Program-made: the position numbers and the translations under genes
Notes under the pieces: generated by a model
Told to the model about the DNA's origin: nothing
What the model saw: the letters and a program-made list of their open reading frames with translations, nothing else
Databases searched by the model: none
DNA from: Sulfurospirillum sp.
Lineage (GTDB): Bacteria > Campylobacterota > Campylobacteria > Campylobacterales > Sulfurospirillaceae
Direction: 5' to 3'
DNA length: 50,834 nt
Assembly: GCA_018058685.1 (NCBI GenBank)
Contig: JAGOZL010000003.1
Coordinates: 1 to 50,834 of the forward strand
Part shown: positions 25,096 to 39,606 of the stretch, one piece after another
Position numbering within the stretch: the first letter of the stretch is position 1
Layout: every line of letters starts with the position of its first letter

Positions 25096-25319
25096 CCTCC
25101 GCCCACTTTTGGGAAGAGGGAGATGACATCTCCTTCTTTTAAAAGATAGCTTTGAGATTCGTGTCGTCCATTGACCATTAAAACGCCTAAGGGCAACTCT
25201 TTGGCAACACCGAGCTCATCAATAATCTCTTGAGCACTGATACCTTCGTGATACGCTCTTTCCTCAACCTTAAAGCGTCCTTCTCGGTATTGCGCAAACA
25301 GTTTTACCGTCACAAGCAT
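25092..25319 (-). CDS. moaD: MoaD-type sulfur carrier protein
   Basis: This 75-residue beta-grasp protein ends in KVGGG, with the Gly-Gly needed for adenylylation and thiocarboxylate formation. Typical MoaD elements are VTVKLFAQYREGRF, ISAQEIIDELG and LLKEGDVISLFP. It supplies sulfur for the dithiolene of molybdopterin or tungstopterin. ATG 25319 overlaps the AOR stop (TGATG), so it is translationally coupled to the enzyme that needs the cofactor. A frame extending to 25331 is less likely. Confidence 0.87.
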   Translation of the reverse strand: MLVTVKLFAQYREGRFKVEERAYHEGISAQEIIDELGVAKELPLGVLMVNGRHESQSYLLKEGDVISLFPKVGGG

Positions 25320-27055
25320 CAAAAATTCCAAAACTCGTCAATTTCTTCATTGGTAAAATCCCAAACGACATCATGCGGTGGGAGTTTTTCATATTTCATA
25401 AATTCTGGTATACGATCACTCGCACTGTTAAGTCCCGCTTTGATATTAAAGGCATGTTCTATTTTGAGAATATTTTTACCTAAATTCATCACATCATCAA
25501 TGGTTAACGCAATACCAAAACGCGCGTTAATCATATCAATAAGTGCTGGCAAACAAGCAGGATCATCAAGAGCAGGGAAAGCTGTAAAGATACACATACC
25601 TGTACTATCAACCGCGGCTGAAGCGATTTGAAGGTTTCTAGCAAGTGCGACTTGACCTTCTTTTTTAAGAGGATCAACATAACCACCGCTGTTTAAGATA
25701 TTGGTCGCAACCGCGTAACCTGCGGTATGGTCTGCTCCCATTGGGGTAGTCACATACGTGATGCCTTGACCTTTGATGGCGCGAGGTTCATACGCAGGGA
25801 TACTTTGTCCTTTGACCACAGGCACACGAACCAAGCCATAAAGCTTACCAAGGTTAGCTGCACCTGAGCCTAAAATACGTCCTAAGTGTGTTCCTTTTGC
25901 CATTTCATTGGCGAGCAAATCATACGCTCTCTCACCATCGCCATACTCTAAGATACCAGCATCGACTGCAAGTCCTAGTGTCACACCTGTCTCGATTGCA
26001 TCCACACCCATATCATCCATCAACGCGTCGATTTTAGCGATTTGGTCCAAGTCTTTGATACCTAGATTTGCACCAAAAGCCCAAATCATTTCATATTCAA
26101 ATCCTGAAGTGAGGTATTTGCCTTCTTTATCATTGTAGGTTTGAGAACACTGGATGACACAGCCTGCGTGACAGCCATGCGTGGTATCGCCACCTCTTTG
26201 TTTGATATTTTCCGCCATCGTTTCACCCGAGATGTTTTCCGCAAACTCAAAACGTCCGCTTCTAAAGTTTCGTGTCGGCAAGCCACCCGCTTCGTTGATG
26301 ATATTGACCAAGATGTTCGTTCCAAAAGCAGGAAGTCCTTGACCACTGATAGGATTTTCTTGGAGTGCTTTGGTAAAGATTTTACTGGCTGCTTTAAATT
26401 TTTCATTATCAACAATCGTCACTTCTTTATAATCTGCCGCGTCTACGGTGATACATTTGATTTTCTTAGAGCCCATCACCGCACCCAAACCACCCCGTCC
26501 GTGGCTTCTGAGTTTTCCTTTAGGATCTTTAACCGAAACATTGGCGGTTAGCATTTTCATCTCACCCACACGACCGATACTCATCACAGCTACTTTTTTA
26601 TCGTATTTGGCAAGCATGGCATCAAGAACGAAATAGTTGTCTTTACCAACGAGTTCAGGTACAGGAATAAACTCAACCTTGTTTTTAGTTACATGTAATT
26701 GATAAAAGGTGTTTTCATCTGCTGGCAAACCTTCGATAATCAGCGCTTTAACGCCCAATTTTGCAAAGATACCTGCACTCGTACCTCCCACGTTTGATTC
26801 TTTGATACCACCGGTTAATGGGCTTTTTGCACCCAAAGAGTTACGCCCCGAGTTAGATGCACTTGTTCCCGAGAGAAGTCCTGGAGCAAAAACGAGTTTA
26901 TTGTTAGGTCCTAAAGGATGACACTCTGGATCAACTTCTTTAGCAACAATCGTCGATGTTAAACCACGACCACCCAGCCCCATCCATTCGGAAGGAACCT
27001 CTTCAATTTTAAAACTTAGGTTAGACATATTGACACGGTAAATCAGATCAGCCAT
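25319..27055 (-). CDS. aor: Tungsten-type aldehyde:ferredoxin oxidoreductase
   Basis: This 578-residue cytoplasmic enzyme oxidises aldehydes to acids and reduces ferredoxin, using tungstobispterin and one 4Fe-4S cluster. The family pattern is clear: N-terminal WMGLGGRGLTS, FAPGLLSGTSASNSGRNSLG, GRVGEMK, RGGLGAVMGSKKIK. The cluster Cys set is C-x3-C-x3-C (residues 295, 299, 303 in CHAGCVIQC), with a later Cys in STGMCIF and the pterin-site segment DAIETG. ATG 27055 is preferred, with AAGGAG upstream, over a frame open to 27085. It forms an operon with moaD and is divergent from hyf. Confidence 0.92.
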   Translation of the reverse strand: MADLIYRVNMSNLSFKIEEVPSEWMGLGGRGLTSTIVAKEVDPECHPLGPNNKLVFAPGLLSGTSASNSGRNSLGAKSPLTGGIKESNVGGTSAGIFAKLGVKALIIEGLPADENTFYQLHVTKNKVEFIPVPELVGKDNYFVLDAMLAKYDKKVAVMSIGRVGEMKMLTANVSVKDPKGKLRSHGRGGLGAVMGSKKIKCITVDAADYKEVTIVDNEKFKAASKIFTKALQENPISGQGLPAFGTNILVNIINEAGGLPTRNFRSGRFEFAENISGETMAENIKQRGGDTTHGCHAGCVIQCSQTYNDKEGKYLTSGFEYEMIWAFGANLGIKDLDQIAKIDALMDDMGVDAIETGVTLGLAVDAGILEYGDGERAYDLLANEMAKGTHLGRILGSGAANLGKLYGLVRVPVVKGQSIPAYEPRAIKGQGITYVTTPMGADHTAGYAVATNILNSGGYVDPLKKEGQVALARNLQIASAAVDSTGMCIFTAFPALDDPACLPALIDMINARFGIALTIDDVMNLGKNILKIEHAFNIKAGLNSASDRIPEFMKYEKLPPHDVVWDFTNEEIDEFWNF

Positions 27056-27097
27056 GATAACTCCTTTGAATATGGTTGTTTCCAAACATCATATTTA

Positions 27098-27119
27098 AAG
27101 TGTATAGCATGAAAATAGC
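27098..27119 (-). promoter_or_regulatory. aor-proximal copy of the 22-bp inverted duplication
   Basis: On the minus strand this reads GCTATTTTC, A, then TGCTATACACTT. It matches the copy at 27298-27319 at 21 of 22 positions. TGCTATAC resembles an extended -10 box (TGnTATAAT). It ends 42 bp before the aor ATG, so it may be the promoter core or a bound operator. Confidence 0.7.
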
Positions 27120-27297
27120 AAAGTCAAGAAAAAGAGAAAAATAAAAATATGGCTTTTTTGCATATTGTTTTTTTACACACTTTTATGTCAGTGGACATGC
27201 TGTTTTATGTAAGTTATAGAAAGACATCATTCGTAAAAACTCTCAATATTTTTTAAATTTTTTTATTAGTATGTTCTTTTATATTACAAATAAATAA

Positions 27298-27319
27298 GCT
27301 ATTTTCGTGCTATACACTT
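27298..27319 (+). promoter_or_regulatory. hyf-facing copy of the 22-bp inverted duplication
   Basis: This reads GCTATTTTC, G, then TGCTATACACTT, facing the hyf operon 162 bp upstream of the hyfA ATG. Its right part overlaps the short inverted repeat TATACA-N5-TGTATA (27311-27327), which the aor copy lacks. Confidence 0.7.
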
Positions 27320-27386
27320 GATGTATACTTTTCCCAATAAAACAATGTGAGATAATTTAAAGAATTTGTTAAATAAAAACAAGCTG

Positions 27387-27415
27387 TATCATAACGAAGT
27401 CATTTTGTTATGATA
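27387..27415. promoter_or_regulatory. Spaced palindrome upstream of hyfA, possible operator
   Basis: TATCATAAC (27387-27395) and its exact complement GTTATGATA (27407-27415) are separated by 11 bp. The centre-to-centre distance is about two helical turns, as for a dimeric regulator. It lies 67 bp before the hyfA start. The regulator is unknown. The arms differ in orientation from the modE operator. Confidence 0.5.
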
Positions 27416-27481: not shown

Positions 27482-28123
27482 ATGTCAAAAGTTCATAAAT
27501 TTGTGATTACCAACCCTGAGCTTTGCATTGCGTGTAACGCCTGTATGAAAACATGTGTAAAACATGCCTATATGCGTGGAAAACTCTCTAAAAAAAGGCT
27601 GGATGTTCTCACGCTAGAAAGTGGAAAAATGCCCAATCAATGCCGTCAATGCGATGATGCTCCGTGTGCCAATGTCTGCCCAACGGGAGCACTTCGTATC
27701 AATAATGCTTGTGTGGAACTGTGCGAAGAGATATGTATCGGCTGTAAGCTGTGTACCATCGCGTGTCCTTACGGAGCGATTAACATTGATGCAGAGTTTC
27801 CTCCCTCCGTGCTCGATGAGGTGGAGAGACACTTGGAGGCAGGGTGTATCAGTGGGCTGAAGAGCATAGCTATCAAATGCGATATGTGCGATGGTATCGA
27901 TAGTGGTCCTGCGTGTGTGGGTGTGTGTCCCACAGGAGCATTAGTATTTATAGACCCCGTATCTGGAGAATGTAAATTTGGTAAGAAAGTCAAAGGGGAT
28001 ATGGCACCTTTTTTAAAGCGCATCGTACCTGAGATGGAGTGTAAAAATATTCCTGAAGCTTTTGTGAAAAAGCCAAAAATAGCATCAGATGAAGCCACAA
28101 AAACCAACAGTGAGGAGCTATAA
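27482..28123 (+). CDS. hyfA: Hydrogenase 4-type ferredoxin subunit HyfA (HycB-like)
   Basis: This 213-residue electron-transfer protein has cysteine clusters for four 4Fe-4S centres: CIACNACMKTC (residues 15-25), CRQCDDAPCANVCP, CIGCKLCTIACP, and CDMCDG...CVGVCP. It lies in the cytosolic arm of the Hyf complex and would pass electrons from a partner (formate dehydrogenase in E. coli, possibly ferredoxin here) to the hydrogenase. It is the first gene of the operon and shares its stop with the hyfB start (TAATG). Confidence 0.88.
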   Translation: MSKVHKFVITNPELCIACNACMKTCVKHAYMRGKLSKKRLDVLTLESGKMPNQCRQCDDAPCANVCPTGALRINNACVELCEEICIGCKLCTIACPYGAINIDAEFPPSVLDEVERHLEAGCISGLKSIAIKCDMCDGIDSGPACVGVCPTGALVFIDPVSGECKFGKKVKGDMAPFLKRIVPEMECKNIPEAFVKKPKIASDEATKTNSEEL

Positions 28124-30063
28124 TGCACATCATATACACGCTATTCCTCTTAGCGACACTTGCATCTCTTGTTCTGTATAAAAAACCTCGTTTGGCTCAA
28201 AAAGTTGGGTTTGGTTTAGCCAGTGTGCTGTCACTTTATGCAACACTCTTTTTCTTTTCCAATCTTGGCGAAACATTGATATGGGAATTGCCTGGAAATT
28301 TTATCAGCACTCCTGTTTTTAGACTTGATTCTCTTGGCATGTTTTTTAGCTTTTTGGTGAGTCTTATTGCTTTTGCAGTTTCACTGTTTAGCTTTGATTA
28401 TGTGAAATTTTATGAAAGCAAAGCCAATTTAGCTGTTTTTGCGTCACTTTTTAATGCCTTTATTCTCTCCATGCTTTTAGTGATTGCCAGCGACAATGTT
28501 TTCTCTTTTATGCTATTGTGGGAAGTGATGACACTGATCTCTGCACTTCTTATTTTAATGAATGATGGTAAAGAGGCTTCTAAAAATGTGATGATTTATT
28601 TGGGAATTGCCCAAATTGGAGCTTTTTGTTTAATGATTGCTCTTTTAATTATGGCAAGCTTCGCGGGTAGTTTTGAGTTTAGTCATTTTGCAGGCATGAA
28701 CATTGGCTTTGGGATGAGCTTAACACTTTTTGTGTTATTGCTTGTCGGACTTGGTTCCAAAGCAGGGATGTTTCCTTTTCATGTATGGTTACCTCTTGCG
28801 TATTGCCGATGTCCTTCAAATGCCTCGGCACTCATGAGTGGGGTTATGATCAAAGTAGCCCTTTTTGCGTTTATCAAATTTTCACTCCTTTTACCACAGT
28901 TTGCCCAGTTTGGTTATATCTTACTCTTCATGGGAGCACTGAGTTGCGTTTTTGGCATTATCTATGCACTCGCTTCCAACGACTACAAAGCGTCCATCGC
29001 ATACAGTTCATGTGAAAATGTCGGCATCATCTTTTTGGGGTTAGGTGGGGCATTTTATGGATTAGGAACGCATTCACCTGTGATTGCACTACTGGGTTTT
29101 ATCGCAGCTTTTTTTCATATATTAAACCATGCCATTTTCAAATCACTCCTGTTTATGTTAAGTGGTAACGTCTTTATGGCAACCAAAACACGTGATATGG
29201 ATGCCCTTGGAGGATTGCATAAAAAAATGCCACTCACCTCTATTATCTTCTTTGTGACCGTTCTCTCCATCTGTGCTTTACCACCACTGAATGGTTTTGC
29301 CAGTGAATGGGTGGTGTATAAAACGATGGTTATGGGTGGTGTTGATGAAGGTGTGGCATCGCGCTTCTTCTTTACGCTCGCTATTATTGCTCTTTCCATT
29401 ACGGGCGCTATGGCGATTATGGCATTTTCAAAAATGTACGGTTCAATTTTTTTAGGGATAGCCCGTGATACCCAATGCGTAGAAGAAGTAAAAGAAGCTC
29501 CCTTTATAAGGCTGTTACCACTGGGATTATTAGCGAGTCTTTGTGTGGGAATAGGTATTTTTATGAATGATGTCGTGGGTATGCTCTCAAAGATTGTGCT
29601 AACATTGATACCTCAAACAAGCCAGAGCGTTTATGGACTCATCTCTATGCCTCTTATTATCATGATTATGTTTTTGTGTGCCATCATTCCTTTTATCTTT
29701 CTTTACCTCTTAAAAGCAAACCATAACAAGGTTCGCGTTACTGAGCCGTGGGCATGTGGTTTTCTTTACAACAAAAATATGCAAATTGGTTCAAACTCCT
29801 TTACGGGGGATATCAAAAAAGCACTCAGCTTTATTTTGAGATATGAGCAAGAAATGAAGATGGAGGGATACTTTTCAAAAGTAGTCTATACGCAAAAAGC
29901 GCATGATCTTTTTTGGGATAAGCTTTATGAACCTGTTATCCGTTTTATCATGGTGGTTTCCGATAAGATAGGTATCTTTCAAAATGGTCGAACAAATCTT
30001 TATGCGGGATATATTTTGATGTATCTTTGTCTGGTACTCATCTTTGGGTATTACTATCTATAA
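28123..30063 (+). CDS. hyfB: Hydrogenase 4 membrane subunit HyfB (NuoL/MrpA-like antiporter)
   Basis: This 646-residue membrane protein with about 15 helices is related to the proton-pumping antiporter subunits of complex I. Conserved charged residues in membrane helices are visible, such as the Glu in LLWEVMTLIS, Lys in GLGSKAGMFPFHVWLP, and Lys and His in FHILNHAIFKSLLFMLSGNV. The C-terminus is a lateral extension. It probably couples H2 evolution to ion translocation, which is inferred from the family. A HyfD-type third antiporter gene is absent from this cluster. Confidence 0.88.
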   Translation: MHIIYTLFLLATLASLVLYKKPRLAQKVGFGLASVLSLYATLFFFSNLGETLIWELPGNFISTPVFRLDSLGMFFSFLVSLIAFAVSLFSFDYVKFYESKANLAVFASLFNAFILSMLLVIASDNVFSFMLLWEVMTLISALLILMNDGKEASKNVMIYLGIAQIGAFCLMIALLIMASFAGSFEFSHFAGMNIGFGMSLTLFVLLLVGLGSKAGMFPFHVWLPLAYCRCPSNASALMSGVMIKVALFAFIKFSLLLPQFAQFGYILLFMGALSCVFGIIYALASNDYKASIAYSSCENVGIIFLGLGGAFYGLGTHSPVIALLGFIAAFFHILNHAIFKSLLFMLSGNVFMATKTRDMDALGGLHKKMPLTSIIFFVTVLSICALPPLNGFASEWVVYKTMVMGGVDEGVASRFFFTLAIIALSITGAMAIMAFSKMYGSIFLGIARDTQCVEEVKEAPFIRLLPLGLLASLCVGIGIFMNDVVGMLSKIVLTLIPQTSQSVYGLISMPLIIMIMFLCAIIPFIFLYLLKANHNKVRVTEPWACGFLYNKNMQIGSNSFTGDIKKALSFILRYEQEMKMEGYFSKVVYTQKAHDLFWDKLYEPVIRFIMVVSDKIGIFQNGRTNLYAGYILMYLCLVLIFGYYYL

Positions 30064-30075
30064 AAGGGAGAATTC

Positions 30076-30996
30076 ATGGACTTTTTCTATCTCTTATTAC
30101 AACTTATTTCGGCAATACTCATCGCACCTCTTTTTGATGGAATTTCTAGAAAACTAAGAGCAAAATTTCAATCTCGCATTGGGCCGAGTATCTTTCAAAC
30201 GTACCTTGATCTTTTTAAACTCCTCAAACGTGGACGTACAAAGTCACATAGTACAAGTTATATCTATCAAATCTCACCGTATGTTCTCTTTGTATGTGCT
30301 GCAGCGATGTTTTGTGCTTTACCCATTACGTATGGTACTGATTCTATTGTATTGTCACCATTTTCGGATATCTTTGTTTTACTCTATTTAGGAGCTCTTT
30401 TTCGATTTATGTTTATCGTTGCGGGTATTGATACTGCTAACCCTTTTGCAGGAGTGAGTGCTAGTAGAGAAGGAACGCTTGGCTTTTATACGGAAGAAGT
30501 CGCTGTGATTTGTCTTATCGTGGTAATGATGGGAGCTGGAAGTACCAATTTAGCATTTATTACGGATTGGGTGCAAGAGGGAAGTTACGGGTATGCCATT
30601 CCTTCATTTTCCATCGCAGCTACTGCCTTTTTGTGGGTAATGTATGTTGAAACGGGTCGAAAACCTTATGATTTGGCTGAAGCGGAACAAGAGTTACAAG
30701 AGGGTGTTTTGGGCGAGTATTGTGGAAAAGACCTTGCCATCATTGATGTAGCATTGTTACTTAAGCAATTTGCCGTGTTAGGATTTTTCTTGGTTATTTT
30801 CATCCCTTGGAGGTTTGAAAATCCTATTTTATCATTGATTGTTTTTTTGGCTGAAGTGGGCTTTTTGTATGTTATGGGCGTTTTTATTGATAATTTTGGA
30901 CCAAGATTTACCGTCAACAATGGGATAAAAAGAACGATGCTCTTTGCTCTTTCTATTGCATGTACGGCTCTCGTACTTTATATTATAGGAATTTAA
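30076..30996 (+). CDS. hyfC: Hydrogenase 4 membrane subunit HyfC (NuoH/HycD-like)
   Basis: This 306-residue membrane subunit anchors the hydrogenase heterodimer and forms the junction to the ion channel, as NuoH does. It has eight or so helices. NuoH/HycD motifs are visible: RIGPSIFQTYLDLFKLLKR, ANPFAGVSASREGTLGFYTEE, and the acidic loop ETGRKPYDLAEAEQELQEGV near residue 195. The ribosome site AAAGGGAG lies before ATG 30076 and hyfE follows after 2 bp. Confidence 0.9.
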   Translation: MDFFYLLLQLISAILIAPLFDGISRKLRAKFQSRIGPSIFQTYLDLFKLLKRGRTKSHSTSYIYQISPYVLFVCAAAMFCALPITYGTDSIVLSPFSDIFVLLYLGALFRFMFIVAGIDTANPFAGVSASREGTLGFYTEEVAVICLIVVMMGAGSTNLAFITDWVQEGSYGYAIPSFSIAATAFLWVMYVETGRKPYDLAEAEQELQEGVLGEYCGKDLAIIDVALLLKQFAVLGFFLVIFIPWRFENPILSLIVFLAEVGFLYVMGVFIDNFGPRFTVNNGIKRTMLFALSIACTALVLYIIGI

Positions 30997-30998
30997 CG

Positions 30999-31646
30999 AT
31001 GGCAAATATAATTGATATTATTGCAGTGTTGATGATGGTAACGAGTTTCGCGGTATTTGGCTTAAGACAATACCGTCATAGTATTCAAGCTTACGCCTTG
31101 CAAACGCTTTTATTAGTAATGATCTTTCTGGCGTTATACTTTAAATACGGCACACATGAACTCCTTATTTGGGCAATCACAGCGTTTGTGATTAAAGTGC
31201 TCTTTGTGCCTTTTTATCTATTGAGGCTGGTTAAAAAATTGGGTGTTGTGATGGAAGATGAGCCCGTAGGTGGCTTTTTTATATCACCGGTTGTTGCGCT
31301 TAGTTTTTCACTCGCAGTTGCGATGATGTTTTACAAAGTGTTCATCCATTTTTCACTTTTTCAAGATGTTTTACCATTGTTTGCAGCATCATTTATCTTT
31401 ATGATGGGCATTTTTGGATTTATTTTGAGAAACTCATTTCTCAAACAAATTCTCTCTTACTGCCTTTTTGAAAATGGCATACACCTAAGTCTTGCGCTTA
31501 TGGCGTATAGTTCTCATGAGTTAGTTGAGATTGGCATTTTAACCGACGCTATCTTTGCGGTTGTGATTATGAGTGTTTTAGCGAAGCGATTTTATGCCGC
31601 TTATGGAAGTCTTGATACCTCCAAAGCCATCAATTTAAGGGGATAA
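30999..31646 (+). CDS. hyfE: Hydrogenase 4 membrane subunit HyfE (NuoK-like)
   Basis: This 215-residue protein has six or seven membrane helices of the HyfE type, which includes a NuoK-like core. The Glu in the conserved LFENGIHLSLALMAY segment (about residue 160) corresponds to the membrane Glu of NuoK. The ATG at 30999 follows AGGA (30987-30990) and is preferred over an open frame extending back into hyfC to 30960. The next gene begins one base after its stop. Confidence 0.85.
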   Translation: MANIIDIIAVLMMVTSFAVFGLRQYRHSIQAYALQTLLLVMIFLALYFKYGTHELLIWAITAFVIKVLFVPFYLLRLVKKLGVVMEDEPVGGFFISPVVALSFSLAVAMMFYKVFIHFSLFQDVLPLFAASFIFMMGIFGFILRNSFLKQILSYCLFENGIHLSLALMAYSSHELVEIGILTDAIFAVVIMSVLAKRFYAAYGSLDTSKAINLRG

Positions 31647-31647
31647 A

Positions 31648-33117
31648 ATGGATATTTTAGTCTTAATACTCACGGTGCCTTTTGTTTTTGGCGTGATTAT
31701 GTTTTTTATGCCACTTCAGTTTAAACTCTTGCAAAATCTTCATATCTTTTTAAGTGTGATTGTTTCATCACTCTTGCTCAGTGCTGTAGGAAAAGTTGTG
31801 AACGAGGAGGCGCTTTCTACATTTCATCATTATATCTTCTTAGATGCTTTGGGTGCTATCTTTTTATCTTTAATTGCCATTACAGGGTTACTGGTCAATG
31901 TCTATGCGACGACCTATATGAAATGGGAATTGGAAGAGGGGCATGTGGATATAAAAGAAATCAAGAATTACTTTGCGCTAAGCTTTATTTTTACAGGAAC
32001 AATGAGTTTAAGTGTACTGTGTAACAATATTGCCTTTATGTGGGCGGCGATTGAGGCAACCACATTGGCTTCCGTTTTTCTTGTAGCGGTTAAAAAAGAT
32101 AAAAAATCCACAGAAAGCGGTTACAAATACATTGTTTTATGTAGCATCGGTTTAGCGTTTGCTCTGTATGCGACGATACTGCTCTTTTCCGCAGCCAATG
32201 GTAAAATTGATGGGGAAGCGATGCTGTATACCAATCTTTTAGCCAATGCTGACCGTATTGATAGCATGGCTTTAAAATTGGTCTTTATCTTTGCTTTAAT
32301 TGGATTTGGAACCAAAGCAGGACTTGCTCCAACACATACATGGCTACCCGACGTTCACGCCGAAGGCCCCGCCCCTACATCTGCGTTGCTTTCGGGGGTG
32401 CTTTTAAAATGTGCGATGTTGGGACTTATACGCTACTACGCTATTGTCGCTAATGGTGTTGGTTTTGATTTTGTGCAAACCGTGATGATAGTGAGTGCAA
32501 CATTGACACTATTTATATCTGCATTCTTTCTGATTCGTCAACACAATGTTAAAAGGATGTTTGCGTATCACTCTGTGGCACACATGGGTGTTATTGCTTT
32601 TGGTCTTGGTGTAGGTGGAGCCATTGGGCTTTTTGCAGCACTTTTTCACTGTGTCGCACACTCGTTTACTAAAGCTTTAGCTTTTTGTTCAACCGGCAAC
32701 ATTGCCAGAATTTACGGCACTAAAGATATGACGAAGATGGGTGGTATGATACGCATTGCTCCACTGAGCGCAGTTTTATTTGGTATTGCCATCTGTTCAT
32801 TGGTTGGTGTTCCTGGATTTGCGATTTTCGTGAGTGAGTTTCTCATTTTTAAAGCGGCGGCACTTGATGGTAAATACCTTTTGATGGGAATTTTTGCAAT
32901 TGCCTTAGCGATTATTTTTATAGCAGATTTTTCACACTTCTTTCTTGCAACCTTTGGTAAAGTAGAAGGAAATGTTGTGCATAACAGCGAAATGAAACTC
33001 AGTGAAAATTTACCTTTGGTTGCGTTAGCCATTTTGATCGTAACCTTTGGTGTATGGCAATTTGATTCCTTTACGTTTCTTTTAGATGAGAGCGTAAAAA
33101 GTATCATGAAACAATAA
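31648..33117 (+). CDS. hyfF: Hydrogenase 4 membrane subunit HyfF (NuoN/NuoL-like antiporter)
   Basis: This 489-residue membrane protein with about 14 helices is the second antiporter-type subunit of the complex. Family motifs include AFMWAAIEATTLASVFLVA with a membrane Glu, GFGTKAGLAPTHTWLPDVHAEGPAPTSALLSG with the key Lys and His, and FHCVAHSFTKALAFCSTGN. It is likely to take part in ion translocation. It is placed between hyfE (1 bp gap) and hyfG (11 bp gap). Confidence 0.9.
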   Translation: MDILVLILTVPFVFGVIMFFMPLQFKLLQNLHIFLSVIVSSLLLSAVGKVVNEEALSTFHHYIFLDALGAIFLSLIAITGLLVNVYATTYMKWELEEGHVDIKEIKNYFALSFIFTGTMSLSVLCNNIAFMWAAIEATTLASVFLVAVKKDKKSTESGYKYIVLCSIGLAFALYATILLFSAANGKIDGEAMLYTNLLANADRIDSMALKLVFIFALIGFGTKAGLAPTHTWLPDVHAEGPAPTSALLSGVLLKCAMLGLIRYYAIVANGVGFDFVQTVMIVSATLTLFISAFFLIRQHNVKRMFAYHSVAHMGVIAFGLGVGGAIGLFAALFHCVAHSFTKALAFCSTGNIARIYGTKDMTKMGGMIRIAPLSAVLFGIAICSLVGVPGFAIFVSEFLIFKAAALDGKYLLMGIFAIALAIIFIADFSHFFLATFGKVEGNVVHNSEMKLSENLPLVALAILIVTFGVWQFDSFTFLLDESVKSIMKQ

Positions 33118-33128
33118 TAGGACATGTC

Positions 33129-34868
33129 ATGAAATGCGATACATTTATAGAAGCCTTAAGTGCTAGAGTTAAAGTTTTAGAAGTCACAAGGCAATGCGAA
33201 GACCAAGTGACTGCTTTGGTTGAGTTAAACGACCTTCCAGAAGCTGTGCGCTTCTTGTATTACGATATGGGTGGTTATCTTACGACAATGATTCCCAATG
33301 ATGAAAGAAGCATTAATAAGCACTATGCTCTTTACTACGCACTCTCTATGGAGGGTGGCAAAATGTTTGAAGGAGATGAGATTGCGCAAGACGAAAAATG
33401 TTTTATTACCGTAAAAACACTTATTTCTCCTGATAGTCTTGTTTTCCCCTCCGTTACACCATTAGTGCCTGCTTGTGTTTGGTATGAAAGAGAAGCGTAT
33501 GATATGTTTGGACTCGTAGCAGAGGGCTTGCCGGACAAACGTCGTTTGGTGCTGAGTGACGATTGGCCCGATGGGCTCTTCCCACTTCGCAAAGACGCGA
33601 TGGACTACCGCTATCGCCCTGACATGCGTGAGCATTACATGGAGCCTGAATATGAATTTTTAAGACCTGAGGGATCTGGCATTATCGACGTGCCTTTAGG
33701 TCCTTTGCATATTACGGCTGATGAACCGGGGCACTTTAGGCTTTTTTGTGATGGCGATACGATTATTGATGCCGATTACAGGCTTTTTTACCAACACAGA
33801 GGCATGGAGAAACTCGCTGAAAATCGTATGAATTATGACCAGATGGGCTATTTAGCTGAACGAGTGTGCGGCATCTGTGGCTATGCCCATGCGATTGCGT
33901 GTATCGAAGCGGCTGAAAAGGCGATTAACTTAGAAGTTCCTGCTCGTGCACAAGCGATTCGCGTTATTTGTTTAGAAATTGAGCGTTTGCATAGCCACCT
34001 TTTAAATATTGGACTGGCATGTGAAGTAACAGGTAACTACAATGCATTTATGCACATTTTTAGAATCCGTGAATACTCGATGAAACTAGCAGAACTGGTT
34101 ACGGGTGGACGAAAAACCTATGGGAATGTTGTCATGGGTGGATTAAGACGCGATATCACCGGAATTGAGATAAAAGAGAGCTTACGAATACTGCAAATCA
34201 TCGAAACACAAGTTGACGAAGTGTGGGATGCTGTGATGGATGACAAACGCCAAATGAGTCGTTGGAAGGGTGTGGGAATTTTAGATAAACAAATTGCACG
34301 TGATTTTTCACCCGTAGGTCCTAATATCAGGGGAAGTGGTATCAAACGCGATACACGCTACGACCATCCGTATGATTTTTTCAACAAACTGGATTTCAAG
34401 GTTGCCGTTGTAGAAGGAGGCGATGTTTTTGCGAGAGAGATGGTTCGCTATATGGAGCTTAAAAGTTCTGTTTCTATCATCCGACAATGCTTTGAACTGA
34501 TGCCTCAAACACCGATTATTATTGAGCCAAAATTCCATGTTAAGCCTGAGAATTATGCACTGGCTTATGTTGAAGCCCCACGAGGGGAGAATGTGCATTG
34601 GATTATGCAAGGGAGTGCTCAAAAGGTGTTTCGCTGGCGTTGTCGTGCTGCTACGTATAACAACTGGCCAAGTCTTCGTTTTCAATTCCGCGGAAACAAT
34701 CTTGCCGATGCCGCACTCATTGTGTGTAGCTTAGATCCGTGCTATTCGTGTACAGAGCGTGTTACGGTGGTGGATGTGAAAAGCAAAAAAAGCAAAATTT
34801 TAACCAATGCCGATTTGAAAAATTTCGCTAGGACACAAAAAAACAGTCCGCTAAAGGATTTAAGATGA
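33129..34868 (+). CDS. hyfG: NiFe-hydrogenase large subunit HyfG (HycE-like, NuoC-NuoD fusion)
   Basis: This 579-residue catalytic subunit has an N-terminal NuoC-like domain (about 1-170) and a C-terminal group 4 NiFe large subunit. The Ni-Fe ligands are intact: L1 motif RVCGICGYAH (about 245-254) and L4 motif DPCYSCTER (about 536-544). About 35 residues follow the last Arg, the typical tail removed by the maturation protease. No selenocysteine replaces the ligand Cys. It reduces protons to H2 at the cytoplasmic face. A plausible GGACATGTC site lies just before ATG 33129. Confidence 0.94.
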   Translation: MKCDTFIEALSARVKVLEVTRQCEDQVTALVELNDLPEAVRFLYYDMGGYLTTMIPNDERSINKHYALYYALSMEGGKMFEGDEIAQDEKCFITVKTLISPDSLVFPSVTPLVPACVWYEREAYDMFGLVAEGLPDKRRLVLSDDWPDGLFPLRKDAMDYRYRPDMREHYMEPEYEFLRPEGSGIIDVPLGPLHITADEPGHFRLFCDGDTIIDADYRLFYQHRGMEKLAENRMNYDQMGYLAERVCGICGYAHAIACIEAAEKAINLEVPARAQAIRVICLEIERLHSHLLNIGLACEVTGNYNAFMHIFRIREYSMKLAELVTGGRKTYGNVVMGGLRRDITGIEIKESLRILQIIETQVDEVWDAVMDDKRQMSRWKGVGILDKQIARDFSPVGPNIRGSGIKRDTRYDHPYDFFNKLDFKVAVVEGGDVFAREMVRYMELKSSVSIIRQCFELMPQTPIIIEPKFHVKPENYALAYVEAPRGENVHWIMQGSAQKVFRWRCRAATYNNWPSLRFQFRGNNLADAALIVCSLDPCYSCTERVTVVDVKSKKSKILTNADLKNFARTQKNSPLKDLR

Positions 34869-35404
34869 TGAAACTTCTTGATATCAGCAAAAAATACGGT
34901 GAAATTACCCATAAATATCCGTTTGAACCCTATAAGGTTTCAGAAAATTTTCGTGGAAAGCCCGCTTATATTTTTGATTTATGTATTGGTTGTGCCGCGT
35001 GTGGTATTGCCTGCCCCTCTAATGCGATTACGGTGGTGTTTAATGATGATAAAAGTAAGCTCATTTGGGAGTTTGATTGCGGAAGGTGTATCTTTTGTGG
35101 TAGATGCGATGAAGTGTGTCCTACAGGGGCGATAAAGCTCAGTGAAGAGTTTGAGCTGGCTGTTAAATTTGATAAATCTGCCTTGATTCAAAGAGGAGAA
35201 TTGGATGTTCAATGTTGCACAACGTGCAAAAAGCCTTTTAGTGCTAAACGGCTCGTCAAGTATAGCTTTGAGTGTTTAAGTAAGGCAAACGTGAGTGAAA
35301 AAAGGCTTGAAGAGGCTAAAAATTATCTGTGTATGTGTCCTACATGTAAAAAAATAGCTACGGTAGCAGACTTTACCAGTGGCAAAGAGACGGTGATAGA
35401 ATGA
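34865..35404 (+). CDS. hyfH: Hydrogenase 4 ferredoxin-like subunit HyfH (HycF/NuoI-like)
   Basis: This 179-residue subunit has two 4Fe-4S motifs, CIGCAACGIACP (about 41-52) and CGRCIFCGRCDEVCP (about 71-85). It also has C-terminal CCTTCKKPF and CMCPTCKKIA pairs, as in E. coli HycF. It relays electrons between HyfA and the small subunit. ATG 34865 (after AAAGGA) overlaps the hyfG stop; ATG 34868 is the alternative. A one-mismatch palindrome (CTACATGTAA, 35340) encodes the last Cys pair. Confidence 0.9.
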   Translation: MMKLLDISKKYGEITHKYPFEPYKVSENFRGKPAYIFDLCIGCAACGIACPSNAITVVFNDDKSKLIWEFDCGRCIFCGRCDEVCPTGAIKLSEEFELAVKFDKSALIQRGELDVQCCTTCKKPFSAKRLVKYSFECLSKANVSEKRLEEAKNYLCMCPTCKKIATVADFTSGKETVIE

Positions 35405-36225
35405 AAACATATGAAATGCCAAGCGAGATTGAGCTTGCCAATACCTTAGAGCAAAAACTTGAGCTATTAAAGCATATCGGTCGAAGTTTTAGTGTTTATC
35501 GAATTGATTGTGGGAGTTGTAATGGCTGTGAGATAGAGATTTTTGCAGCTATTACGCCGTTGTGGGACCCTGAGCGTTTTGGCTTTAAATTGGTTGCCAA
35601 TCCTCGTCATGCCGATATCCTTCTGTGTACCGGCCCTGTGACACGTCAGATGTACTATCCGCTTCTTCGTGCCTATGAAGCCACACCCGATCCAAAAATC
35701 GTTGTAGCCCTTGGTGCGTGTGGAGTAACGGGAGGTATTTTTTACGATGCGTACAGCGTTTTAAGTGGTATCGACAAAATCATCCCTGTTGATGCCTACA
35801 TTCCAGGTTGTCCTCCGCATCCTGCGAGTATCATCTATGGACTCACAACAGCCCTTGGTGTGATGGAACAAAAACTTCAAAAAGTTAGTTTTGAACACGA
35901 TGGCGATCTACCGCCTCTTGTAGAAGATTCAGTCCTTGGCAATACCCTTTTTGAAAGAGATTTACTCGTACATGCTAAAAAATTGATGAGTTATGTGTTT
36001 GGGCGCAAATTGTTCGATAAGTACCTCAGTGCACTCGTCAGCAGTGGCAATACCAAAGATGCCAAAGCGACGAAAGCCTCTATCACCCAAGCCATGCGTA
36101 TTGAAGATGATCCACGCTATGCAGAGTGTATGGGAATTTTGCACAATGAGATTTATACCCAATATGTACTCTGCCAAGAAGAAGATAAAATTGATTTGCA
36201 TAGAGTTAAGTGGGGAGCAAAATAA
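35401..36225 (+). CDS. hyfI: NiFe-hydrogenase small subunit HyfI (HycG/NuoB-like)
   Basis: This 274-residue small subunit binds the proximal 4Fe-4S cluster. It has IDCGSCNGCEIE (residues 38-49), DILLCTGPVTRQM, LGACGVTGG and VDAYIPGCPPHPASIIYG, which supply the four Cys ligands as in NuoB. The C-terminal region beyond residue 165 is long and less conserved. It overlaps hyfH by 4 bp (ATGA). It pairs with HyfG. Confidence 0.92.
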   Translation: MKTYEMPSEIELANTLEQKLELLKHIGRSFSVYRIDCGSCNGCEIEIFAAITPLWDPERFGFKLVANPRHADILLCTGPVTRQMYYPLLRAYEATPDPKIVVALGACGVTGGIFYDAYSVLSGIDKIIPVDAYIPGCPPHPASIIYGLTTALGVMEQKLQKVSFEHDGDLPPLVEDSVLGNTLFERDLLVHAKKLMSYVFGRKLFDKYLSALVSSGNTKDAKATKASITQAMRIEDDPRYAECMGILHNEIYTQYVLCQEEDKIDLHRVKWGAK

Positions 36226-36570
36226 GTGATAAAAGTGTACAGACTCATCAAACGGCATCTTGATGGCGCAAAATGCGATGATGCTAAACTTGAACAGATT
36301 AAAATCTTTTCTACGTGTATCGGACATGGTGTGGGTACGATTGATTTTAGTGAAAAGGTTTTAGAGATTGAAGTATCTACATTTGAAGAGATTTTGAAAA
36401 ACGGTGATGAATATTTAAAATTTAAGCTGGGTAATTTGAGCAAATATTTTGAAATCGAGATTTTCCCAGAACATGCTGTACGTCTTTTACCTCACATGAT
36501 AGAATGCCCTTTGAAAGAGATACTTGTCAGTTTGAAAGAGGGTTATTTAGTCCTTCGGAAGGATTTTTAG
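36226..36570 (+). CDS. hycH: HycH/HyfJ-type hydrogenase maturation protein
   Basis: This 114-residue protein of the formate-hydrogenlyase maturation HycH family is recognised by CIGHGVGTIDFSE and the conserved C-terminal EIEIFPEHAVRLLP. The E. coli homologues assist assembly of the large subunit. Translation starts at GTG 36226, right after the hyfI stop with GGGGAGC upstream, and ends in a TAGTG overlap with the protease gene. Confidence 0.78.
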   Translation: MIKVYRLIKRHLDGAKCDDAKLEQIKIFSTCIGHGVGTIDFSEKVLEIEVSTFEEILKNGDEYLKFKLGNLSKYFEIEIFPEHAVRLLPHMIECPLKEILVSLKEGYLVLRKDF

Positions 36571-37016
36571 TGAAAAAAGCACTCTTATGCGTTGGTAATG
36601 AGCTCAGAGGTGACGATGGTGTTGCGATTGCAGTGGGCAGAGTTGTGGAAAAAAACATGGCAGATTGGAGGGTTTTTTTTGGTTACGACACCCCTGAAGA
36701 TGAGTTTGCTGCTTTGCGTGAGTATGCTCCTGATGTGATTGTGGTTGTAGATGCGATGAGTGGTTTTAAAGAAGATAAAATCGAGTTTATAGACCTTAGC
36801 GATGAACGCACCTACATCTACTCTACCCATAATCTTCCTACCCCCATTCTTATCAGTTATTTAAGAGATATTTGTACCAAAACTATTTTCTTGGGTATTT
36901 GCGTTTTACTTGAAAATGTTTTGCACTTTAGCGAAGGTTTGAGTGATAGTGCTAAAATATCTGTGACGCGAGCCGTTGATAAACTCAAAGAGCTTGATGT
37001 GTTGCTTCATGAGTGA
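36570..37016 (+). CDS. hycI: Hydrogenase maturation protease HycI-like
   Basis: This 148-residue endopeptidase removes the C-terminal tail of the hydrogenase large subunit after Ni insertion. The metal-sensing residues typical of the family are present in GNELRGDDGVA (residues 9-19), VVVDAMSG and STHNLPTP. It starts at GTG 36570, which overlaps the previous stop and follows AAGGA. A longer in-frame ORF from 36504 would lie inside hycH and is rejected. It is the last gene of the hyf operon. Confidence 0.9.
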   Translation: MKKALLCVGNELRGDDGVAIAVGRVVEKNMADWRVFFGYDTPEDEFAALREYAPDVIVVVDAMSGFKEDKIEFIDLSDERTYIYSTHNLPTPILISYLRDICTKTIFLGICVLLENVLHFSEGLSDSAKISVTRAVDKLKELDVLLHE

Positions 37017-37063: not shown

Positions 37064-37723
37064 CTAATTGAGGATTTTTATCAAATAACCAATACCTCGG
37101 ACATTGATAACAAAGTCTTCTTTTAAAATACTTTTTAAACGATTAACTTCGGCACGAATGGTCGCAGCATCAACATCAATATCATCCCATACGTATTCCA
37201 TAAACATCTCGTAACTACACACAAAGCCTTGGTTACGTGCAAGAAAATCGATGATTTTAAGCTGACGTTTAGAGAGCTTTTGTGGTTCGTGATTAAAAAA
37301 GAGTGTCATCGTATCCGCATCAAAACTGTAGCACTTTGAGAGTCGTTTGTGGTGTATATCGATACGCGTTGTTTGTACGATTTTGTTGATGCGAAGGGAG
37401 AGCTCTTTGAGATGAAACGGTTTTTTTAAATAATCAAAACAGCCTAATTCAAAAGCTTTTGAGATATCTTCAATATCAATCAGCGTCGAGATAAAAATAA
37501 TCGGCACAACTTTTTTGATAGCCTGTAACTTTTCCACTATACTTAAACCATCAATATTAGGCACATTAATATCTAAAATGAGTAGATCGAACGTTGTTTC
37601 GTACAGGATGTTTAAGCAGACATTGCCATCTCGTACAGGAGTGATATCATGGCCTTCCGAAAAGAGGTATTGGGATATAGCTTCGTTGAGTAAGATATCA
37701 TCTTCTAAGAGTAAAATTTTCAT
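37064..37723 (-). CDS. OmpR-family response regulator
   Basis: This 219-residue two-component regulator has a receiver domain with acidic pair EDD (7-9), phosphoacceptor Asp51 in LLILDINVPN, Thr/Ser in FISTL and Lys in KKPFH, then a winged-helix DNA-binding domain (LSKRQLKIIDFLARNQG and ATIRAEVNRLKSIL). It overlaps the kinase gene by 4 bp and is its cognate partner. It is convergent with the hyf operon. The target genes are unknown. Confidence 0.9.
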   Translation of the reverse strand: MKILLLEDDILLNEAISQYLFSEGHDITPVRDGNVCLNILYETTFDLLILDINVPNIDGLSIVEKLQAIKKVVPIIFISTLIDIEDISKAFELGCFDYLKKPFHLKELSLRINKIVQTTRIDIHHKRLSKCYSFDADTMTLFFNHEPQKLSKRQLKIIDFLARNQGFVCSYEMFMEYVWDDIDVDAATIRAEVNRLKSILKEDFVINVRGIGYLIKILN

Positions 37724-39606
37724 GGTGCTTCCAGTAAAAATTGGTAGGAAAAGATAGTTTTCTCTTCATCAGAGTGTAGATGAATGCCGATATTTTCCTC
37801 ATCACAGATATTTTTTACAAGGGTAAGTCCTAACCCAAATCCATAGTGTGCGCTATTTTCACGATAATACTCTTCAAAAACTTTTTCAGGTTCTAGTATT
37901 TTTCTTGAGTGCGATGCAATAGAAAATGTACACACTAAATTCTTTACATGTAAAACGATGTGAATCGCACTATTCTCAAACGTATATTTAATGGCATTGG
38001 TGAGATTATTATCGATAATGCGTTGCAGTTTTGTCTCATTAAAGAAGATATTTGCATGAGAGACGTTACTTTCAAAGATAAAATGGGATTTGGCTTTAAG
38101 TACGACTTGGGTAAAAAAATCAATTCGACTGCGCACATAATCAACCAAATCAATCGAACGTTTTAAAGAGGGAAGATGGTCTTTTTTGACCAAATAGCTT
38201 AAATCATCATATAAAGAGAAGATGCTTTTTAACCCAACTTCGATATTTTCCAAATAACGACTTTTCCCAAACTCCATTTCATGTAGTTCGATATTGTTCA
38301 TAATAACACTCAAAGGGGTATTCATCTCATGAACGCTGTAACGTAAGAATTGTCTGTGTGAGGCTAGTAGATTTTTTGAGTAAGCAATTTGTTCTTCAAG
38401 TTTTTTAGATTGTTCTTCATAATCTCGGTTGCTTTGCTGAACCAGATTACTCAAGGATTGAATCGTTTTTGCGTACGATGTTTCATCCATAAGGGTGTAA
38501 TGTGCTGTTGAGGTAGGTATCTCTTTTTCAAGAAGCGTTGTTTTTTCGCTGAGTGCAACAACGCTTAAGGTTTGATTGAGTAATTCATTGTGGTCATTTT
38601 CATGGTAAAACTCTGAATAGGTAAAAAATCCAACACTAGGTGCTAGTTTAGAAAAAGGCGCAATTTCAAGATGAATAAGATCAGGAATGTAGCGTCTTCG
38701 AGCCATACAAGAGTAGATAAAAAAAGTTTGGACATCTTTTGTGTTAAGTCGATTCATCGCTTTTGTAGGATCTGTGAGCAAAGACTTTGCATCGCCAAAG
38801 CCAATTCTAACTTTATCTCCTTTTTGAAAATTTCCACTGCAATGGACACTGCCATCATCATTTTTGCTGATGACAGCACGTGCTCGTGCAATGCCATTTT
38901 TTTCAATAATTAATGGAAATTCAGTGGGTGAAATTTGACTTCCCAAATATTTTTCATAAAATTTAACAGGAGTCATATCATCGATTTGATAGATTCGATT
39001 TCCATCGGCTTTTTCAATTGTGTGTTCAAGTCCAATGGTTTTCCAATCAAATTTAAAATCCGTTGAAACCTCTAAGCAATCTGAATTTAAAGAGACACCA
39101 ACAACTCCTTGTTCCAAAAGAGTGGTTTGAGCTGAGATAAACGTTTGTAAAAAGTTTCCATTATCGCCCGCCATACCACCACAAATGGGAATAGAGGGAT
39201 TGTATGATTCGATACCTTTGAGAAATTCTTCCGCATTGATAGACGTTCCATCTGAATAAAGAATCAAAAGTTTTGTTTGAGGCGTGATAAGGTTAGAAGC
39301 CAAGTTTTGACCACAGGTAAATGCGCTTGCATGATTTTCAAAGGCTATTTTTAAAAAAGTTTCTTCAAAGAGTGTGATGGAGATGATGGTGCGATGAGTG
39401 GTGACTAACGCATTATTGATTTCGCCATCGGTTGTCGTTCCAATACAAATAGCATGTGGTAAAAATGAGAAAATAGTTTTAATAGCTTCTTCTAATACCT
39501 CTTTGCCTTGTCCGCAAAAAATCTGTACCAGAATATTTTTTTCATCTTTAAAGCGCTCAAAATCATATGCAACAGCGGGTAAAAATGTGTAGGTATATGT
39601 TTTCAT
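37720..39606 (-). CDS. FIST-domain sensor histidine kinase
   Basis: This 628-residue soluble sensor kinase has no clear membrane helix. FIST_N and FIST_C sensory domains cover about residues 1-375 (with GTTTDGEINN and ICGGMAGDNG). A coiled segment (380-415) leads into a HisKA domain with a His in FLRYSVHEMNTPLSV, and a HATPase domain follows (NNLTNAIKYTF and GFGLGLTLVKNIC). FIST domains are thought to bind small ligands such as amino acids in the cytoplasm. It is first in a two-gene operon with the regulator. A palindrome copy at 37944 lies in the ATPase part. Confidence 0.9.
   Translation of the reverse strand: MKTYTYTFLPAVAYDFERFKDEKNILVQIFCGQGKEVLEEAIKTIFSFLPHAICIGTTTDGEINNALVTTHRTIISITLFEETFLKIAFENHASAFTCGQNLASNLITPQTKLLILYSDGTSINAEEFLKGIESYNPSIPICGGMAGDNGNFLQTFISAQTTLLEQGVVGVSLNSDCLEVSTDFKFDWKTIGLEHTIEKADGNRIYQIDDMTPVKFYEKYLGSQISPTEFPLIIEKNGIARARAVISKNDDGSVHCSGNFQKGDKVRIGFGDAKSLLTDPTKAMNRLNTKDVQTFFIYSCMARRRYIPDLIHLEIAPFSKLAPSVGFFTYSEFYHENDHNELLNQTLSVVALSEKTTLLEKEIPTSTAHYTLMDETSYAKTIQSLSNLVQQSNRDYEEQSKKLEEQIAYSKNLLASHRQFLRYSVHEMNTPLSVIMNNIELHEMEFGKSRYLENIEVGLKSIFSLYDDLSYLVKKDHLPSLKRSIDLVDYVRSRIDFFTQVVLKAKSHFIFESNVSHANIFFNETKLQRIIDNNLTNAIKYTFENSAIHIVLHVKNLVCTFSIASHSRKILEPEKVFEEYYRENSAHYGFGLGLTLVKNICDEENIGIHLHSDEEKTIFSYQFLLEAP

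Follow-up and report, generated by a model that had tools for sequence, protein, structure and literature searches.

In the 50,834-nucleotide stretch of a Sulfurospirillum sp. contig that we analysed (hereafter the window), the genes for a tungsten aldehyde:ferredoxin oxidoreductase (aor) and for a hydrogenase-4-type enzyme (hyf) probably belong to a regulon that is new but works by a known type of mechanism, and whose probable regulator is encoded in the same window. Each operon is preceded by a copy of the same 22-bp element, which we read as the binding site of a dimeric response regulator of the OmpR/PhoB type. A kinase carrying a FIST domain, together with its partner regulator, would read both copies and co-activate aor and hyf—an interpretation to which we assign a probability of roughly 80%. 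It draws on the repeat itself, on a -10 box at a fixed distance, on the genus-wide occurrence of the element and on its linkage to the kinase/regulator pair, all of which can be seen directly in the genomes compared.

The two copies are identical at 21 of 22 positions and inverted, each being directed into its own operon, just as the initial annotation had recorded at the same positions (Table 1). A repeat search extended the pair to 29 nt (27091-27119 and 27298-27326; 86% identity), with a spacing of 178 nt between the arms. At up to three mismatches, the window holds just these two copies (as opposed to none in 100 shuffles), and the whole draft genome (1.82 Mb, 86% complete) contains no further genuine one. 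An extra match with three mismatches (C37:2782) was rejected, as it lacks a -10 box and falls within coding sequence, and weaker matches to a relaxed pattern were discarded for want of a -10 box or for lying in coding sequence. With two genuine copies only, the element is not a common genome-wide repeat unrelated to particular genes, a possibility that had been raised when the duplication was annotated. An inverted match of at least 21 of 22 positions arose in 7 of 2000 dinucleotide shuffles of the intergenic region (24% GC), a count that takes in simple palindromes. By this test alone a chance origin of the pair is unlikely, and chance duplication is ruled out because the element is kept across relatives.

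Table 1 Features of the window, with strand and supporting detail.
Feature	Position	Strand	Detail
aor, tungsten aldehyde:ferredoxin oxidoreductase	25319..27055	-	Pfam PF02730, PF01314 (AFOR_N + AFOR_C)
-10 box TATGAT, putative aor promoter	27088..27093	-	4 nt after the 22-mer
aor copy of the putative 22-bp regulator site	27098..27119	-	GCTATTTTCATGCTATACACTT; half-sites GCTATTT 27113-27119, GCTATAC 27102-27108
hyf copy of the putative 22-bp regulator site	27298..27319	+	GCTATTTTCGTGCTATACACTT; half-sites GCTATTT 27298-27304, GCTATAC 27309-27315
-10 box TATACT, putative hyf promoter	27324..27329	+	4 nt after the 22-mer
Second, hyf-specific dyad TATCAT-N4-AAGTCA-N7-ATGATA	27387..27415	+	hyf leader, 29 bp
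hyfA-like [4Fe-4S] subunit, first gene of the hyf operon	27482..28123	+	HydN-type ferredoxin family
Remaining hyf (hydrogenase-4 type) operon	28123..37016	+	HyfB 28123-30063, large subunit 33129-34868
OmpR-family response regulator, proposed site reader	37064..37723	-	Response_reg + Trans_reg_C; co-occurrence, linkage
FIST-domain cytosolic sensor histidine kinase, the regulator's partner	37720..39606	-	FIST, FIST_C, HisKA, HATPase_c

The anatomy of the element emerged from an alignment of 140 distinct sites, in the selection of which the GCTA letters of the half-sites had been demanded, while neither their remaining letters nor the downstream sequence had been used. Half-sites of the form GCTA(T/C) occupy positions 1-5 and 12-16, giving an 11-bp period, and TTTCAT is conserved between them; with the first G of the 22-mer taken as position 1, TANNAT follows at positions 27-32 in 96% of the 140 sites. 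The 22-mer is a tandem direct repeat, (G)CTATT-N6-CTATA, laid out head-to-tail as GCTATtT-tcAt-GCTATAc. It occupies the -35 region, where the sequence reads ATTTTC and not the consensus TTGACA, and the -10 box begins exactly 4 nt past its end. At this fixed offset, a TANNAT-type box was found at every site before aor (21/21), hyfA (20/20), ferredoxin genes (19/19) and porin genes (14/14). Transcription is expected to start near 27081 for aor (about 27074-27083) and near 27336 for hyf (about 27334-27339).

The direct-repeat reading is unambiguous because promoters of molybdenum oxidoreductases (loci L300, L301 and L303) bear three to five head-to-tail 11-bp units; four such units are found at the promoter of an Arcobacter-like aldehyde dehydrogenase of the ExaC type (L280). 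At L301 (4218-4280, genome G017), five consecutive GCTATATTYNT units of 11 bp stand before the gene for a Mo-aldehyde oxidoreductase. Response regulators of the OmpR/PhoB type typically bind repeats of this kind, arranged head-to-tail every 11 bp across the -35 region. Judged from its layout, the site has the geometry of a promoter that such a regulator would bind and activate: the half-sites stand in tandem, a sigma-70-type -10 box lies at a fixed distance without a consensus -35, and a candidate cognate regulator co-occurs.

To determine the prevalence of the element, we scanned 24 Sulfurospirillum genomes with the pattern GCTATTTTCATGCTATAMACTT, allowing up to three mismatches. All 24 contained it, at one to nine copies each, and the reversed pattern returned nearly nothing. 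About 120 regions were taken and their sites sorted by downstream gene. The search before orthologues, which the initial annotation had proposed, found the 22-mer about 62 nt before the aor start at 21 loci—including relatives without an adjacent hyf—and upstream of hyfA at 20 loci, counts that come from related genomes and overstate independence. At most site-bearing loci, aor and hyf are not adjacent. The same non-independent tally comprises 26 sites at 21 loci before genes for a Mo-aldehyde oxidoreductase of the xanthine-oxidase family, 19 before 2[4Fe-4S] ferredoxin, 14 before OprD-type porin, seven before a FIST-domain chemoreceptor (FIST-MCP), with other chemoreceptors (MCPs) being preceded by sites too, four before an HbpS-like protein, two each before a MoaD/ThiS-like gene and the tungstate-binding protein WtpA (NCBIfam, above cut-off), and one before DUF3360. 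In the window's own genome (G000; small, 86% complete), no Mo-aldehyde oxidoreductase homologue was found, and this genome seems to rely on aor alone. Orthologues of hyfA were present in 23 of the 24 genomes. At the end of hyf, a 170-aa reading frame (36504-37016) is conserved with the operon (82% in genome G007) and matches no Pfam family.

The predicted regulon spans at least ten gene families throughout the genus, and the target set makes metabolic sense: it unites aldehyde oxidation by tungsten and molybdenum enzymes, the supply of metal and cofactor, the ferredoxin that is reduced and the hydrogenase by which it is reoxidised. The make-up of the regulon varies, as a close relative of the window's aor (90% identical, locus L004) has no recognisable site. 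In two to three genomes (L180, L211, L222), the gene after a site encodes an arsenite efflux transporter of the ACR3 family, an odd companion in a regulon of aldehyde and hydrogen metabolism. Of the initial annotation, the notion of shared promoter and operator logic has held, as a common element of which each copy serves its own operon, and so has the coupling of the two operons; its scope was much too narrow. What it missed is the direct repeat of 11-bp period, the genus-wide regulon and the likely regulator within the same window.

The initial annotation had also taken TGCTATAC, within the 22-mer, for an extended -10, in which case the shared sequence would merely be core promoter plus operator. 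TGCTATAC is indeed similar to TGnTATAAT, and the sites lie at plausible promoter distances. However, the corresponding columns 16-20 vary among copies (TGCTACGAAC being common), leaving no conserved TATAnT-like hexamer there, while the TANNAT box 4 nt downstream is nearly invariant; nor do periodic GCTAT repeats ahead of a separate -10 box fit a -10 role. Because these columns vary and a separate -10 box is conserved, TGCTATAC is the second half-site and not a -10, and the earlier assignment now appears very improbable. Near-identical inverted copies so close to each other might also be a recent local inverted duplication, or the terminus of a mobile element, with no regulatory meaning. Yet other copies are absent from the genome, no transposase reading frame lies between the two, and both recur at orthologous places, at an unchanged distance from the -10 box, in genomes that have aor and hyf about 12.5 kb from each other or not linked at all. 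This orthologous conservation makes a meaningless duplication next to impossible, and we rejected it.

Further conserved sequences accompany the element. The second dyad, in the hyf leader (Table 1), occurs at hyf in at least 12 genomes of the genus and at no other recurrent place. A covarying RNA hairpin is unsupported, as pair changes in the dyad do not exceed those in shuffles; a DNA operator is therefore as likely, possibly that of a second, hyf-specific regulator. At the predicted aor start of the window (27070-27090) and in the aor leaders of L156, L185, L209 and other loci, we observed a short palindrome with changing arms (GGTTGTAACAACC, GGGCTTATAACCC). A conserved block, AAAAAAGCATATTTTTGTTTT, lies about 20-40 nt upstream of the aor site at some 17 loci and could act as a terminator or as an additional upstream element.

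With respect to the protein that reads the 22-bp site, genome comparison points to the FIST-domain kinase and OmpR-type regulator encoded at 37064-39606 as the probable candidates. In the window, this pair adjoins the far end of hyf, away from the sites. The kinase has no 19-residue window above 1.6 in hydropathy and is apparently soluble. Orthologues of kinase and regulator were found in all 24 genomes of the genus, and in about 19 of these the operon for kinase and regulator and a Mo-aldehyde oxidoreductase gene diverge from a common intergenic region that contains a site. Two genomes (G146 and G019) show the gene order kinase, regulator, site, aor, and in a further one (G022) the FIST pair lies upstream of aor. 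G002 (L287) has an extra copy of the regulator gene directly upstream of aor. This copy has no FIST kinase gene beside it; the kinase gene seems to have dropped out of the interval that separates a glycosyltransferase gene from the regulator gene.

Co-occurrence extends beyond the genus. Within the family but outside Sulfurospirillum, sites were present in 3/3 regulator-positive as compared to 1/8 regulator-negative genomes (Fisher p = 0.024). Beyond the family, weak pattern matches occurred in 10 of 37 genomes with and 32 of 233 without the regulator (p = 0.05); among the 30 matches read there, a -10 box was present in five of six from regulator-positive and two of 24 from regulator-negative genomes (p = 0.0008). 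In Arcobacter-like genomes, genuine sites stand before chemoreceptor genes and a PQQ alcohol dehydrogenase cluster, before the gene for a phosphotransacetylase, whose name is based on no more than its N-terminal sequence, and before that for an ExaC-like aldehyde dehydrogenase, which is divergent from the FIST kinase gene. The association with alcohols and aldehydes thus accompanies the regulator from one family to another.

Published proteomics offer a view of the system in operation. During pyruvate fermentation, S. multivorans raised its Hyf subunits 4-27-fold and the Mo-aldehyde oxidoreductase SMUL_2101 142-fold, and the source of the aldehyde was ‘obscure’ to the authors (PMC6242987). Genome G007 of our set matches S. 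multivorans in having an exact pceP, and the gene for its single Mo-aldehyde oxidoreductase of the family is preceded by a site and runs divergently to the FIST pair. From its uniqueness and map position, we infer that this enzyme is SMUL_2101. The induction of both Hyf and SMUL_2101 fits the proposed mechanism. The main ferredoxin gene of G007 (probably SMUL_0303 by map position, 6-fold induced) has no site, and a paralogue at ~885 kb carries one; we therefore dropped the induction of SMUL_0303 as independent confirmation.

The element invites comparison with that of PceP (RR2), an OmpR-type regulator of tetrachloroethene respiration in the same genus. PceP binds CTATW repeats in EMSA, with 6-nt gaps, overlap of the -35 region and a TANNAT -10 box, and pceAB has CTATA repeats spaced by 6 nt (PMC7755780). 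Both window copies contain half-sites of this form, CTATT and CTATA, with the same gap and placement. PceP, however, needs CTATW-N17-CTATW, the outer repeats of three, whereas the window sites consist of two repeats, CTATT-N6-CTATA, plus extra conserved letters; at positions 24-28, where a second CTATW would follow after N17, they read AAATA (aor) and ATGTA (hyf). The window regulator is 24% identical to PceP, differs in the recognition-helix region (ATIRAEVNRLK vs PAIRTLVKDLR) and is not its orthologue. The kinases are likewise distinct, being cytosolic with a FIST domain in the window and membrane-bound in the PceP system, and so are the target genes. Given the absent N17 repeat and the low identity of the regulators, we reject identity with the PceP element.

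The pho box of class II promoters activated by PhoB likewise consists of tandem 11-bp direct repeats in the -35 region, with the -10 box just downstream. It shares its geometry and an OmpR/PhoB-family reader with the element described here, but half-site sequence, sensor and regulon differ. In E. coli, the hyf and hyc operons for hydrogenases of the 4/3 type are under sigma-54 control by regulators of the FhlA/HyfR type. The window also concerns control of such a hydrogenase, but with a -10 box of the sigma-70 type and a two-component regulator, and the target set is without formate dehydrogenase genes. Pseudomonas exa/ped circuits resemble the window in placing alcohol/aldehyde oxidation under two-component control (PMC12997753). 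They are not homologous as systems, and the Sulfurospirillum regulon feeds AOR, ferredoxin and hydrogenase. The PQQ alcohol dehydrogenase cluster and the ExaC-like aldehyde dehydrogenase of Arcobacter-like relatives are associated with the FIST pair or with its sites. As to the sensor, NosP binds NO through haem and has a separate kinase partner. The window kinase has the FIST_N/FIST_C module in common with NosP (NCBIfam NF041558; E=4e-10), but scores 39 bits, far below the family cut-off of 450, and here FIST is fused to the kinase.

Most genomes of the genus encode two further OmpR-type paralogues (~48% and 36-38% identical), and one of these, or an activator outside the two-component class, might bind the 22-mer, the FIST pair being a mere neighbour or target. 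Since chemoreceptor genes with a FIST domain are among those preceded by the site, FIST genes could be members of the regulon instead of its controller. Against this, site-bearing genes are repeatedly found next to the FIST pair (in about 20 genomes, some of them from other genera), the presence of the pair is predictive of sites that are genuine in having a -10 box, and no clear autoregulatory site precedes the kinase/regulator operon, the intergenic sites facing the Mo-oxidoreductase gene. A different reader is, in our judgement, rather unlikely. The same regulator might alternatively act as a repressor, blocking polymerase at the -35 region until a signal releases it, and overlap with this region would suit a repressor too. 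However, an alternative -35 consensus is not recognisable beneath the repeats, and the spacing between half-site and -10 box is rigid, as in class II activation by OmpR/PhoB-type proteins. Furthermore, PceP, of the same geometry, was argued to be an activator (PMC7755780), and Hyf and SMUL_2101 show strong joint induction (PMC6242987). We thus consider repression quite unlikely.

For the FIST pair as activator, we infer the following course of binding, activation (rather than repression) and ligand response. The cytosolic FIST domain would sense a metabolite—an aldehyde, probably, or a product of alcohols or aldehydes—and the kinase would then phosphorylate the OmpR-type regulator. A regulator dimer would occupy the two head-to-tail half-sites in place of a -35 box and, by class II activation, recruit RNA polymerase, which would transcribe aor one way and hyf the other. 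The cell would thereby switch on, at one time, the AOR reaction, in which aldehyde is oxidised and ferredoxin reduced, and the Hyf reaction, in which protons are reduced and ferredoxin is reoxidised. The shared sites and their association with the regulator support the link between aldehyde oxidation and H2 evolution proposed in the initial annotation. The ligand is guessed at from the genes in the set, and may instead be NO, as for NosP. Tentatively, the FIST domain might serve twice as an intracellular sensor of aldehyde or alcohol metabolites: in the kinase, governing tungsten and molybdenum oxidoreductases, ferredoxin, tungstate uptake and hydrogenase, and in FIST-MCP, a chemoreceptor that this regulator would itself switch on. 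If so, metabolism and taxis would follow one ligand.

We found no account of this regulon in the literature searched. Few ligands of FIST sensor modules are known, and the regulon suggests a physiological role for one kinase with such a domain. For pyruvate fermentation by S. multivorans, it provides a testable cause of the unexplained 142-fold induction of the aldehyde oxidoreductase and of the induction of Hyf. Aldehyde oxidation, ferredoxin and the H2-evolving hydrogenase would be governed by a common promoter element and a single candidate two-component system, which would explain how Sulfurospirillum could switch to a fermentative, H2-releasing metabolism.
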